A stretch of DNA of 64,000 nt, taken from contig NZ_AP022593.1 in the NCBI RefSeq assembly GCF_010731815.2, forward strand, positions 4,340,001 through 4,404,000, written 5' to 3'. Every line of letters starts with the position of its first letter. Position 1 is the stretch's first letter. The notes beneath the pieces are model-generated. The model searched no databases. It saw nothing but the letters and a program-made list of their open reading frames with translations, and was not told the DNA's origin. Origin of the DNA: Mycolicibacterium arabiense. Lineage in GTDB: Bacteria; Actinomycetota; Actinomycetes; Mycobacteriales; Mycobacteriaceae. The position numbers and the translations under genes are program-made. Shown piece by piece: positions 47,850 through 56,356 of the stretch.

Positions 47850-48788
47850 ATGCGGACTCTCGTCACCGGCGCGGCCGGTTTCATCGGATCGACGCTGGTA
47901 GATCGCCTGCTGGCGGACGGTCACAGCGTCGTCGGCGTCGACGACCTCAGCTCCGGCAAGAGCACCAACATCACTGCGGCCGAGCAGAGTGACGCGTTCG
48001 AGTTCGCCAAGGCCGACATCGTCGAGGCTGATCTGAACGGGTTGCTCGCCGACGTGCAGCCCGAGGTCGTGTTCCACCTCGCCGCGCAGATCTCGGTGAA
48101 GCTCTCCGTCGACGACCCGCAGCGCGACTCGAGCGTCAACGTGGTCGGCACCGTCCGCCTGGCCGAGGCCGCGCGCAGGGCCGGTGTCCGCAAGATCGTG
48201 CACACCTCCTCCGGTGGCTCGATCTACGGCAAGAACCCGCCCGGTTACCCAACCACCGAGGAAATGCCCGTCGATCCCTCATCGCCATATGCGGCGAGCA
48301 AGGTCTGTGGCGAGGTGTACCTCGACATGTTCCGCAACCTCTACGGACTCGACTGCAGCCACATCGCGCCCGCCAACGTCTACGGCCCGCGCCAGGACCC
48401 CCATGGCGAGGCAGGTGTCGTCGCGATCTTCGCCCAGGCCCTGCTCGCCGGGCGACCGACCAAGATCTTCGGCGACGGCGGCGACACCCGTGACTACGTG
48501 TACGTCGACGACGTCGTGGACGCCTTCGTGCGCGCGGGCGGGGAGGCGGGCAGCGGCCTACGCTTCAACGTCGGCACCGGCGTCGAGACCTCGACGCGCG
48601 AACTGCACACGGCGATAGCCGCTGCCGCAGGCAAGCCCGACGACCCGGAACTGCACCCGCCGCGCCTCGGCGACCTCAAGCGGTCGCGGCTCGACATCTC
48701 CCGTGCGCGTGACGTGCTGGGGTGGGCGCCCCAGGTGGCGCTCACCGACGGTGTGGTCAGGACGGTCGACTTCTTCCGCGAGGACTAG
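47850..48788 (+). CDS. galE: UDP-glucose 4-epimerase family protein
   Basis: NAD-dependent short-chain epimerase of 312 residues. Rossmann motif [10 protein letters not shown] (residues 5-14), TSSGGSIYG with the catalytic Ser/Thr region, YAASK (Tyr and Lys, near 148-152), and the C-terminal [19 protein letters not shown]. Closest to Rv3634c GalE1, which interconverts UDP-Glc and UDP-Gal and can act on UDP-GalNAc/GlcNAc types. It is divergent from the GT-C-like gene, and its stop overlaps the DUF2304 stop by four bases. Its product could provide the UDP-GalNAc used by PpgS next door. Confidence 0.9.
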
Positions 48789-49126
48789 CGGTCCTCCGGC
48801 GTCCGCGCCCCCTCCAGCGCGACAGCGCGCGCCAACTGCGCGTACTTCAGCTCGAGATCCTTGAACCGCATGTACGTGCTGAGCGTGGTGAACAGGAACA
48901 CGATGATCAACGCGTAACCCAGCAGATCCGAACCACGGTCGACGCCAAGCCAATTCGCGAGCACGGTCGTGTCGTCGGGCCGCAGGATCGCGTACACCGC
49001 TGCGATGACGAACACCACGTAACCGACCTTGACCCAGGCCCTGGCCTGCGCGCTGCGCCGCGACCTCAGCAGGTACACCAGCAGCGTGATCACCGCGGCG
49101 ATCAGCAGTGCCTGAATCCAATTCAT
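48785..49126 (-). CDS. DUF2304 small membrane protein, PpgS partner
   Basis: Protein of 113 residues, Rv3632 type. Three hydrophobic segments ([35 protein letters not shown] and [19 protein letters not shown]) followed by a charged helix ([19 protein letters not shown]) that looks coiled-coil. In M. tuberculosis the Rv3632 protein enhances activity of the neighbouring polyprenyl-phosphate GalNAc synthase. The ATG overlaps the ppgS TGA (ATGA). It is the last gene of the five-gene minus-strand operon. Confidence 0.86.
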
Positions 49127-55400: not shown

Positions 55401-56356
55401 TCGAGCGGTGCCAAGCAGGCGACGACCGTGGCCTCGGTGGGGCCGTAGGTGTTCCACACCTCGCGCCCGTCGACCGCGAGCCGTTCGCCCAGTTCGGGTG
55501 GGCACGCCTCGCCGCCGAAGATGAGTAGCCGCACGGCCTCGAGCGCCTCGGCAGGCCACAGCGCTGCGAGGGTCGGCACGGTGGACACCACGGTGATGTC
55601 CCGCGACACCAGCCACGGCCCCAGGTCCATGCCGCTGCGCACCAGCGACCGGGGCGCGGGCACCAGGCAGGCGCCGTGCCGCCATGCCAGCCACATCTCC
55701 TCGCACGACGCATCGAAGGCGACCGAGAGCCCGGCCAGCACCCGGTCACCCGGGCCGAGCGGGTTGTCGCGCAGGAAGATCTGCGCCTCCGCGTCGACGA
55801 ATGCCGCGGCATTGCGATGGGTGACCGCGACGCCCTTCGGCGTTCCGGTCGAGCCGGAGGTGAAGATGATCCAGGCGTCGTCGCGGACCATCGGCTTCCC
55901 CGCGCGCCACCCGCGCGACGAGCCGTGGCCGCGGACCAGACCCTGTTCGGTGATGACGCCGACCACACCGGCCTCGCCGAACACCAGCGCGGCGCGCTCG
56001 TCGGGATCGTCGGCGTCGACGGGAACGTAGGCAGCGCCCGCCGCGAGCGTCGAGAGGATCGCCACGTACAGCGCGTAGCTGCCCGACGGCATCCGGATGC
56101 CGATGCGGTCGCCGCGTCCGATGCCCCGCTGCGCCAGCCAGGCCACGCTTTCCTCGACGTCGGCAACTAACTCGGCGTAGGTGAGCTGCACGTCCCCGTC
56201 ATCGAGAGCAGGCGCATCGGGGTGACGCTCGGCGGTGGCGTAGAGGATGTCGATGAGCGTCCGCGGTGGCGGCGCCATCTCCGAGAGCAGGTACTGAGCC
56301 GGAATCCCGAGTAGGTCTTGTCCCTGGAGTTCGACGTCGCCACTCTCTGCTGTCAC
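52421..56356 (-). CDS. Pls/PosA-family nonribosomal peptide synthetase
   Basis: Protein of 1311 residues with the layout of epsilon-poly-lysine-synthase-like enzymes: adenylation domain (about 30-500; IIFTSGSTGTPKGVAVTHRN, NTYGPTEATV, YRSGDLVR, TRTSGKVDRNALP), thiolation domain with FFAVGGGSLS (carrier Ser546), then a membrane-embedded C-terminal region. That region contains about six helices interleaved with three left-handed-beta-helix acetyltransferase-like modules (about 735-830, 985-1060, 1210-1290). There is no condensation domain. Specificity positions read D215, A216, E219, S258, I279, G281, T303, V311, V312, K492, close to lysine-type codes as I remember them. Predicted product: a cationic amino-acid homopolymer or amide. 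GTG start, first gene of a five-gene coupled operon. Confidence 0.9.
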   Translation of the reverse strand: MTAESGDVELQGQDLLGIPAQYLLSEMAPPPRTLIDILYATAERHPDAPALDDGDVQLTYAELVADVEESVAWLAQRGIGRGDRIGIRMPSGSYALYVAILSTLAAGAAYVPVDADDPDERAALVFGEAGVVGVITEQGLVRGHGSSRGWRAGKPMVRDDAWIIFTSGSTGTPKGVAVTHRNAAAFVDAEAQIFLRDNPLGPGDRVLAGLSVAFDASCEEMWLAWRHGACLVPAPRSLVRSGMDLGPWLVSRDITVVSTVPTLAALWPAEALEAVRLLIFGGEACPPELGERLAVDGREVWNTYGPTEATVVACLAPLDGKGPVSIGLPLPGWDLAVVDASGIPVALGEVGELVIGGVGLARYLDPEKDAEKYAPMPTLQWPRAYRSGDLVRLEADGLYFQGRADDQVKVGGRRIELGEVDSALVNLPGVSGGAAAVRKTASGTPLLVGYVASADPAFDVAAARIALAESLPAALVPRLVLVDELPTRTSGKVDRNALPWPIEGDTAADDPDLAGTTGWLAGLWRDILAAPIDGPEADFFAVGGGSLSAAQLVAALRRRYPQVTVADLYDHPRLGSLAGYLDELAPPPKVEIRTVRPVSTATQVAQVALSLPLATLTGMQWLVWLALLNNVGASIGVPWTQPIGWWWILAGFLLFVTPPGRMGIAVLGARMLLGGLQPGTYRRGGSVHLRVWLAERLGEASGAENQAGAPWLVYYARALGNRVGKGVDLHSAPPVTGMLTLGHRCSIEPEVDLTGHWIDGDLFHVGPIDVGNDATIGARTTLLPGASVGKNADVAPGSGVVGKVKAGQYWKGSPAMKSGKARHPWPDERPPRAPVWVAVYGVTSVLLGGVPLLALASGLAVLGWAVHDTASVSDAIGPALLWTPVAALLAIVVYAGLTVLGVRGLAVGLREGYHPVRSRVGWQLWATERLMDMARNYLFPLYASLLTPWWLRLLGATVGKGTEISTALLTPKFTVVEDGAFLADDTMVASYELGGGWIHVAKATIGKRAFLGNSGITQPGRRVPDDGLVAVLSATPHKAKAGSSWLGSPPIRLRRKPTAADALRTFEPSTRLKVMRSLVETCRVIPMMVTFGIGVAVLLAFQWLVTDAGYLWAALAGGAILLVAGAVAGTIAVIAKWAVIGRIDAIEHPLWSSFVWRNEVSDTFVEVVAAPWFARAASGTVVMNWWLRGLGASIGNGVWCETYWLPEADLVTLGPAATVNRGCVVQTHLFHDRIMRMDTVVLDDGATLGPHCVALPAARIGAGATVGPASLVMRGDEVPPSSRWQGNPIAPWNPLRKKRAERAQKPKKNAA

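Follow-up and report, generated by a model that had tools for sequence, protein, structure and literature searches.

In Streptomyces albulus, the gene pls is translationally coupled to pldII, an ORF of 1404 bp that encodes a metallopeptidase (PMC9223678, in extract). Coryneform bacteria contain homologues of Pls, which are of the same enzyme type and have the same predicted substrate; that of Corynebacterium variabile, whose gene adjoins a peptidase gene, shares the architecture described below and gave rise to ε-poly-L-lysine (ε-PL) of 26-35 residues in Streptomyces coelicolor, and ε-PL was undetectable in C. variabile itself and in C. glutamicum expressing the C. variabile gene (PMC8117764, in extract). 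The isolates of that study came from cheese and skin, and the text contains neither "mycobacteri" nor "glycosyltransferase" (PMC8117764). A further family, "NRPS-1", comprises one-module A-PCP nonribosomal peptide synthetases (NRPS) accompanied by an MFS gene, present in Rhodococcus, Mycobacterium and Amycolicicoccus in all strains except pathogenic mycobacteria; the extract of that report (PMC5550956) gives no substrate, no product and no link to an M1 peptidase or to PpgS. The second system to be considered is the decoration of arabinogalactan with galactosamine, which the polymer of M. tuberculosis bears. This pathway (PpgS, Rv3632, Rv3634c and Rv3779; the ppgS locus of C. glutamicum) is published without a polymer synthetase and, in the extract available, names neither a flippase nor a deacetylase, referring to "as yet unidentified factors" (PMC9671496, in extract). 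In C. glutamicum, phage Cog depends on ppgS, and the main text makes no mention of cgp_0395 (PMC9671496). No study joining a Pls-type NRPS with mycobacteria or PpgS was found in the open-licence literature, the partial coverage of which does not prove absence.

In the window, i.e. the whole stretch of 64,000 nucleotides analyzed here from a soil-type mycobacterium, both systems meet in one row of minus-strand genes. The upstream gene (52421..56356) encodes an NRPS of 1311 aa that belongs to the Pls/PosA family (TIGR02353, 725.6 bits at a cut-off of 423.1). Its adenylation (AMP-binding) domain (residues 40-362; 55271..56239, minus strand; PF00501, 216.1 bits) and carrier (PP-binding) domain (residues 519-581; 54614..54802, minus strand; PF00550, 48.8 bits) are followed by a C-terminal tandem acetyltransferase-like region of hexapeptide-type domains with transmembrane segments (residues 604-1289; 52490..54547, minus strand), which covers the TIGR02353 profile completely (1-695 of 695), the same A-PCP-TIGR02353 arrangement as in S. 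albulus. The carrier domain contains GGGS, which we take to be the phosphopantetheine serine motif. Searching PDB yielded only weak hexapeptide-fold matches for the C-terminal half, and 7wew, an ε-PL synthase, as the best match for the adenylation domain (627 bits). Read at the positions that presumably correspond to the GrsA numbering, the adenylation pocket code is DAESIGTVVK, identical to 7wew in all 10 residues and also present in 45/45 further aligned NRPS proteins (5 Mycobacterium loci and 40 loci from 23 other genera). Its second position is Ala, as in S. albulus Pls; Met occupies it in PosA and Phe in PDAP/PDAB synthetases (PMC10522769, in extract). The window NRPS is, hence, a predicted ε-PL synthetase, judged by profile and pocket code, and by its type presumably belongs to the NRPS-1 family (PMC5550956, in extract).

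The next gene (51102..52424, minus strand) encodes an M1-family metallopeptidase of 440 aa with the motif HELAHQW (PF01433, 99.5 bits; PF17900, 59.4 bits), that is, a zinc metallopeptidase within the range of about 440-470 aa coupled to a pls-type gene, as is PldII, presumably itself a member of family M1. The two genes look like a pls/pldII pair, and the M1 protein is predicted to be a PldII-like polylysine hydrolase on the basis of size, enzyme type and gene order. That it trims the polymer is unsure because, according to a review, neither yield nor length of ε-PL changed in Streptomyces when Pld and PldII were inactivated (PMC8506220, in extract), against which a repression study stands (PMC9223678, in extract). 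The coupled metallopeptidase is common to both loci; the window differs from S. albulus in what comes after M1, namely a flippase-like protein of 419 aa with 12 hydrophobic stretches (49846..51105), the polyprenyl-phospho-N-acetylgalactosaminyl synthase PpgS (TTG start; 49123..49836; NF058614 equivalog, 414.1 bits, cut-off 370) and a small DUF2304 membrane protein, the Rv3632-type partner of PpgS (48785..49126; PF10066, 99.8 bits), all on the minus strand. By profile, the latter two are members of the galactosamine pathway (PMC9671496, in extract). An epimerase gene lies alongside as well: a galE-type, NAD-dependent sugar epimerase (47850..48788, plus strand; PF01370, 202.7 bits) is convergent with the operon. 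Its designation as Rv3634c was taken from gene order. Flippase, PpgS, DUF2304 and the nearby galE would together constitute the polyprenyl-phosphate-GalNAc machinery.

Neighboring genes overlap by GTGA at NRPS/M1 and at M1/flippase and by ATGA at PpgS/DUF2304, and a 9-base gap separates flippase and PpgS. The first-pass annotation, made from the letters of the window, is thereby borne out as regards five nearly gapless minus-strand genes (4-base overlaps at three junctions, a 9-base gap at the fourth), the names given to them (profile matches for NRPS, M1, PpgS and DUF2304, a modeled fold for the flippase), the PpgS/DUF2304 pair and, as far as the TIGR02353 match and the lysine pocket code indicate, a Pls-type synthetase of a cationic polymer; the linkage extends to five genera. 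A 4-nt overlap occurs at NRPS/M1 in 84/85 and at M1/flippase in 63/63 Mycobacterium loci, the window included in both counts. Since the in-frame start nearest to -4 was taken, the flippase/PpgS junction serves as the control; measured identically, just 2/42 Mycobacterium loci overlap there by 4 nt. In other genera, the 4-nt overlap was found at NRPS/M1 in 9/33 and at M1/flippase in 2/8 loci. The Mycobacterium gene row is chained in an operon-like manner beyond chance, and both modules are probably co-expressed in this genus, presumably from a common transcript.

Despite this chaining, the two parts are separable. Among 118 Mycobacterium genomes, 54 contain NRPS and PpgS, 31 only the NRPS, 32 only PpgS and one neither; the corresponding numbers in a survey of 201 genomes of the family are 48, 138, 9 and 6, a limited number of candidates having been scored per genome. 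The NRPS thus occurs without PpgS in 31/85 and 138/186 genomes, and PpgS without the NRPS in 32/86 and 9/57, where the count of 86 includes two partial matches that fall short of the cut-off (G012, and G114 where a contig ends) and that of 57 another two below it (G124 and G151). The association is negative in the genus (P = 0.0001) and in the family (P = 0.013; Fisher's test, shared ancestry ignored). Where the NRPS is present in Mycobacterium (85 genomes), ppgS is adjacent in 32, less than 15 kb away in 7, distant on the same contig in 8, on another contig in 7 (possibly because of assembly breaks) and absent in 31. On a midpoint-rooted tree (18/62 branches with support below 0.9), a no-regain rule implies that ppgS was lost on at least 10 separate occasions, and all 31 NRPS-only loci retain NRPS-M1-flippase. 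Fourteen well-known genomes served as a control set; C. glutamicum alone among them had both the NRPS domain and PpgS at a strict threshold. M. smegmatis reportedly has no ppgS (PMC3485146). NRPS and PpgS are not gained and lost jointly but independently; therefore, the aminosugar lipid is dispensable for the polymer, and a requirement of PpgS for the NRPS product was rejected because of the 31 loci.

M1, by contrast to PpgS, follows the NRPS: both are present in 85 and both absent in 33 of the Mycobacterium genomes, and within the family both are present in 186 and absent in 14 genomes, with M1 alone in one. Unlike pls-pldII of S. albulus, the pair is near-universal in its own family. M1 was also considered as the missing GalNAc deacetylase, which was dropped because none of the 33 NRPS-less Mycobacterium genomes has such an M1 (E ≤ 1e-90), despite the fact that the arabinogalactan of M. 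tuberculosis contains galactosamine (PMC9671496, in extract). A second NRPS copy (locus L107, genome G026) had no M1 match and was left out of one analysis. The M1 tree comprised 95/169 M1 proteins, including the window and 10 hand-chosen Mycobacterium loci, with rows below 300 aa dropped; some rows labeled "Coryne" are actually Williamsia, Gordonia or Kitasatospora. The orthology of the Corynebacterium copies is less sure, as these fall into a long-branched clade of their own, flagged by the program.

What the first-pass annotation had proposed, namely that the NRPS and ppgS parts serve one function and that a polymer is attached to, or exported with, a lipid-linked aminosugar, is not supported by this distribution; gene row and linkage are borne out, which leaves the annotation's interpretation partly supported. 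The NRPS/M1 pair largely moves apart from ppgS, which is what the annotation itself had named as speaking against a joint role. Its statement that only the last three genes of the row remain in M. tuberculosis agrees with Rv3630-Rv3632 insofar as these are neighbors in print (PMC6487176, in extract). The data rather suggest two old, separable cell-surface systems in one locus instead of one new pathway. Our preferred reading, which we hold to be probable, is that of two envelope modules, NRPS plus M1 and flippase plus PpgS, DUF2304 and galE. The NRPS would activate L-lysine, load it onto its own carrier domain and polymerize it at the membrane to an ε-PL-type polycation, which M1 may hydrolyze or trim; PpgS/DUF2304 would load UDP-GalNAc onto polyprenyl phosphate, and the flippase would turn this presumed cargo to the outer leaflet for arabinogalactan decoration, M1 and flippase forming a fixed joint of an old cell-envelope locus. 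The likelihoods given to this reading and to the alternatives overlap and do not add up to one.

That the locus is nothing but an ancestral envelope neighborhood, its modules lacking any functional tie, is unlikely, although several observations speak for it. The named loci compared are the best 80 of 522 ppgS matches, with an upstream reach of ≤10 kb; the group labels Corynebacterium (g3) and Tomitella (g14) are presumed from gene order. Five genera share the order NRPS-M1-flippase-PpgS-DUF2304, which led us to reject chance adjacency, and six have M1 adjacent to the flippase. In the four linked genera besides Mycobacterium, opposite-strand genes interrupt either the NRPS/M1 or the flippase/PpgS junction, which makes a single transcript unlikely in these genera. 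In several genera, a number of the neighbors are, by reading, apparent envelope genes; four genera have an MFS-type gene after NRPS-M1 (Pfam-checked in one). Mere synteny would agree with these neighbors, with the independent or negative presence of the modules, with the loose junctions outside Mycobacterium, and with the relocated and the ppgS-upstream class each being a single clade in the tree. Against it stand the exact coupling of M1 and flippase in all Mycobacterium loci measured and the behavior of M1 where the NRPS lies far away or on another contig: in 5 Gordonia-group and 8 Corynebacterium-group genomes, the only strong M1 is at the flippase/ppgS locus. Unlike C. variabile with its peptidase neighbor, the 5 Corynebacterium-group NRPS loci read have no M1 beside the NRPS. 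M1 remaining with the flippase near ppgS in two genera suggests a tie tighter than co-location. Separation by contig may reflect assembly breaks; in G290 and G298 of the Dietzia group, NRPS and flippase lie on one contig, with ppgS close to the end of a second one.

The flippase-like protein matched no Pfam family, and its profile gave one chance match among PDB sequences, nothing meaningful. An AlphaFold2 model reached a pLDDT of 92.4 when built from 39 diverse rows (45.7 from 30 close homologues), and its fold search returned the MOP/MATE/Wzx fold over the whole chain of the predicted model. The fold is shared with WzxE, MurJ and MATE proteins of the MOP superfamily, from which the protein differs in lacking such sequence matches. 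It occurs in 116/118 Mycobacterium genomes, including all 31 NRPS-only ones and G064, which has neither NRPS nor PpgS; therefore, it cannot serve PpgS alone in this genus. Outside Mycobacterium, it was found in 46/46 PpgS genomes and in three more without PpgS (≤8 candidates scored per genome). From the model and its co-occurrence with PpgS, we regard it as a strong candidate for the GalNAc-lipid flippase. It could instead belong mainly to the polymer module in Mycobacterium, exporting the lysine polymer, either as such or linked to a lipid, after having been borrowed from the PpgS module; its invariable 4-nt overlap with M1, its retention in the ppgS-less loci and the fact that MATE-type transporters rank equal to WzxE in the fold search would fit. 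We consider this quite unlikely, as 32/33 NRPS-less Mycobacterium genomes carry the flippase, which adjoins ppgS in 9 of 10 such loci fetched (it is ∼2.7 kb off in L116), and as NRPS-M1 genomes without PpgS outside Mycobacterium lack it except for two of the Corynebacterium group, G232 and G243 (again at ≤8 candidates per genome).

Returning to the two-module reading, the NRPS product itself may be doubted. The enzyme might add one or few lysines to an envelope amine, in a DltA-like lysinylation, rather than make long polylysine; cultures of C. variabile without ε-PL (PMC8117764, in extract) and the near-universality (186/201), which fits a housekeeping envelope step better than an antibiotic, point that way. 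The full-length TIGR02353 domain and the 26-35-mers made by the C. variabile enzyme in S. coelicolor (PMC8117764, in extract) make it decidedly improbable. Very doubtful is one joint pathway in which a polyprenyl- or arabinan-linked aminosugar carries the growing lysine polymer or leaves the cell together with it: the five-genus order and the sole strong M1 at the flippase/ppgS locus in the split Gordonia- and Corynebacterium-group genomes favor it, though M1 tracks the NRPS, and each system occurring without the other, together with the repeated ppgS losses from loci that keep NRPS-M1-flippase, speaks against it. A polylysine-coated wall in linked species, the NRPS extending its chain from galactosamine's free amine (lipid-linked or on arabinogalactan), M1 trimming it and ppgS-less species using another envelope amine, would account for M1 remaining next to the flippase near ppgS with the NRPS elsewhere, but is highly improbable.

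What is new under the two-module reading is a near-universal predicted lysine-polymer system of mycolic-acid bacteria, and a testable candidate for the step of arabinogalactan galactosamine decoration "flipped ... by as yet unidentified factors" (PMC9671496, in extract). Provided that the NRPS product is a lysine polymer, 186/201 sampled mycolic-acid bacteria hold genes for a surface polycation, and 33/118 Mycobacterium genomes, to judge from genome sizes and published work probably including slow growers, lack them; such a polycation would matter for the charge of the envelope, for how sensitive cells are to cationic drugs and for the binding of phages.

At its upstream end, the row is marked by a small divergent gene (56459..56884, plus strand), a recurrent neighbor in the Mycobacterium loci compared. 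Beyond the epimerase gene, the locus map places a large membrane protein of uncertain start (46011..47855, minus strand), for which no Pfam match was found and the position of which we take to be that of Rv3635; in ppgS-less loci, it remains next to the flippase.

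The five-gene row described in the first-pass annotation was confirmed in both its coordinates and its near-gapless junctions: on the minus strand of the window, the NRPS (52421-56356), the M1 peptidase (51102-52424), the flippase-like protein (49846-51105), PpgS (49123-49836, with a TTG start assumed) and DUF2304 (48785-49126) are joined, in this order, by two GTGA overlaps, a 9-base gap (which depends on TTG being the correct ppgS start) and an ATGA overlap. Beyond the DUF2304 end of the row lie a convergent epimerase gene (47850-48788) and then a gene for a large membrane protein (46011 to ~47855); on the other side, a small divergently oriented gene begins at 56459. 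The genome containing the window is 6.45 Mb in size, and the closest named homologues of the flippase belong to Mycolicibacterium/Mycobacterium. Judged by eye, a 755-aa ORF (43599-45866, minus strand) resembles a WXG100/ESX-type secreted protein; a similar ORF is also present near the locus in L031, one of the loci extracted.

The first two genes look like the pls/pldII pair of Streptomyces albulus, which is described as translationally coupled, the pldII product being a metallopeptidase that degrades epsilon-poly-L-lysine (epsilon-PL; PMC9223678). According to a review, inactivation of Pld and PldII left epsilon-PL unchanged (PMC8506220). For a Pls homologue of C. variabile with a peptidase neighbour, synthesis of epsilon-PL of 26-35 residues was reported when it was placed in S. 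coelicolor; epsilon-PL was reported as not found in its own host, nor in C. glutamicum (PMC8117764). NRPS and M1 are a module bound by shared presence: both occurred in the identical 85 of 118 Mycobacterium genomes (NRPS matches above cut-off), and among the 201 genomes of the family survey the NRPS was present in 186 (spanning 27 of 30 genera) and M1 in 187 (186 with the NRPS, one alone), with neither in 14. A conserved one-module "NRPS-1", listed without function for every strain except pathogenic mycobacteria (PMC5550956), is inferred, not proven, to be the NRPS of this locus. In one 3.3-Mb Mycobacterium genome (G103:C1:203063-203693), the NRPS is reduced to fragments of its terminal domain that contain internal stops. 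Another genome (G026) carries a second NRPS copy (C82:2332-4389; L107), with no M1 match within its 10-kb contig.

PpgS was detected in 57 of the 201 family genomes (eight genera; two of the matches fall under the family cut-off), and its association with the NRPS was negative. With up to eight candidates scored per genome, the flippase was present in 64 family genomes; outside Mycobacterium it occurred in 49, including all 46 with PpgS, the remaining three belonging to the Corynebacterium group. Flippase and PpgS are thus, outside Mycobacterium, a second module bound by presence. Inside Mycobacterium, the flippase was found in 116 of 118 genomes, with or without NRPS and PpgS.

The 118 Mycobacterium genomes comprised 84 with ppgS above cut-off, to which two partial matches were added as present. 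NRPS and ppgS were adjacent on the same strand in 32 genomes, all with the order NRPS-M1-flippase-PpgS (in L080, the locus sequence ends before DUF2304); ppgS lay 12.4-14.9 kb upstream in seven, 171-227 kb away on the same contig in eight, and on a separate contig in seven. That coupling means one function, in the sense of an obligate common product, does not fit the genomes with the NRPS alone (31/118) or ppgS alone (32/118); one had neither. All 31 NRPS-only loci retained NRPS-M1-flippase and an Rv3635-like gene, and no match to ppgS and DUF2304 was found in them. M. smegmatis may belong to this class, because homologues of ppgS and Rv3779 are reported absent from it (PMC3485146). The intervening region was inspected in four NRPS-only loci, two of which (L026:4465-6850, Pfam-checked, and L092:4441-6805) carry amidohydrolase and TetR genes on the other strand at the ppgS/DUF2304 position. 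On a midpoint-rooted FastTree tree of NRPS and M1 (85 loci), the locus classes needed 10 changes, compared with a mean of 42 for shuffled labels (200 shuffles, minimum 34). If regain of ppgS is disallowed, the linked-order clade requires at least 10 losses of this gene; many inner branches of that clade are weak (support <0.9 in 18 of 62). The relocated (15 loci) and ppgS-upstream (seven loci) classes each formed a single clade with support of 1.0.

The linkage NRPS-M1-flippase-PpgS-DUF2304 is old. This order was found in Mycobacterium and in four further genera (Dietzia, Gordonia, Williamsia and Speluncibacter), in which an opposite-strand GT2 gene separates the flippase from ppgS. NRPS and PpgS shared a contig and strand within 15 kb in 30 of the 48 family genomes that carry both (Mycobacterium 7/7, two being ppgS-upstream; Dietzia group 11/13; Gordonia group 3/8; Williamsia group 8/8; Speluncibacter 1/1; Corynebacterium group 0/8; two other genera 0/3). 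NRPS and M1 are also separated by opposite-strand genes in three of these genera, namely by a DoxX-like gene (Gordonia, Williamsia) or by two genes (Dietzia), so that the tight chaining seen in the window is particular to Mycobacterium. The GT2 glycosyltransferase gene, exemplified by L144:12705-13580, may correspond to C. glutamicum Cgp_0396.

The modules are joined by position via M1-flippase. In Mycobacterium, M1 and flippase overlapped by 4 nt in 63 of 63 loci, and the flippase/PpgS junction was not fixed. In five Gordonia-group genomes with NRPS and ppgS on separate contigs, the sole strong M1 lay 2.2-2.5 kb from ppgS; in the eight Corynebacterium-group genomes, M1 was on the ppgS side (≤6 kb in seven, 21 kb in one), directly adjoining the flippase in all eight. 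In the three genomes of two other genera carrying NRPS and ppgS, M1 adjoined the NRPS instead. Among the best 80 of 522 ppgS matches, M1 and flippase occurred without an NRPS in the sequence covered (at most 10 kb upstream) in 11 of the 22 loci from Gordonia and in 16 of the 31 from Corynebacterium, and were scored adjacent in 11/11 and 10/16 of these, respectively; in the other six, the match starts were 1.1-1.4 kb apart. The Gordonia ppgS-side M1 is the same gene as the NRPS-side M1, since the copies cluster in the M1 tree; Corynebacterium copies formed a separate, long-branched clade. The strongest case for a closer tie between the modules is that M1 stays beside the flippase when the NRPS is elsewhere.

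The data fit two modules that share a locus and may also share a role in the envelope. In the simplest mechanism, the NRPS would make a lysine polycation at the membrane, with M1 as its own hydrolase, beside machinery making and flipping polyprenyl-phosphate-GalNAc, and both modules would add positive charge to the wall. Protonated galactosamine has been suggested to interact with phosphate or succinyl groups (PMC7502851). Both the NRPS/M1 pair and the PpgS pathway represent known kinds; among the papers listed in searches of open-licence PMC articles, none was found that recognizes the locus NRPS as part of a mycobacterial polylysine-type system, or that names the flippase.

Other neighborhoods were also observed. 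Seven genera (L134, L138, L145, L149, L151, L160 and L162) have, downstream of NRPS-M1, genes that were labeled by eye as dTDP-rhamnose genes (rmlC/rmlA/rmlB-like). In several genera lacking PpgS, NRPS-M1 is followed by genes for an MFS-type transporter and a regulator of the GntR/FCD type (L158:10903-12156, also L132, L133, L141, L142, L154 and L155; Pfam-checked in L158 and L132). Finally, a record titled Kitasatospora arboriphila (L168; NZ_JNYV01000002.1) is near-identical to Williamsia muralis at the locus and is probably mislabeled or contaminated.
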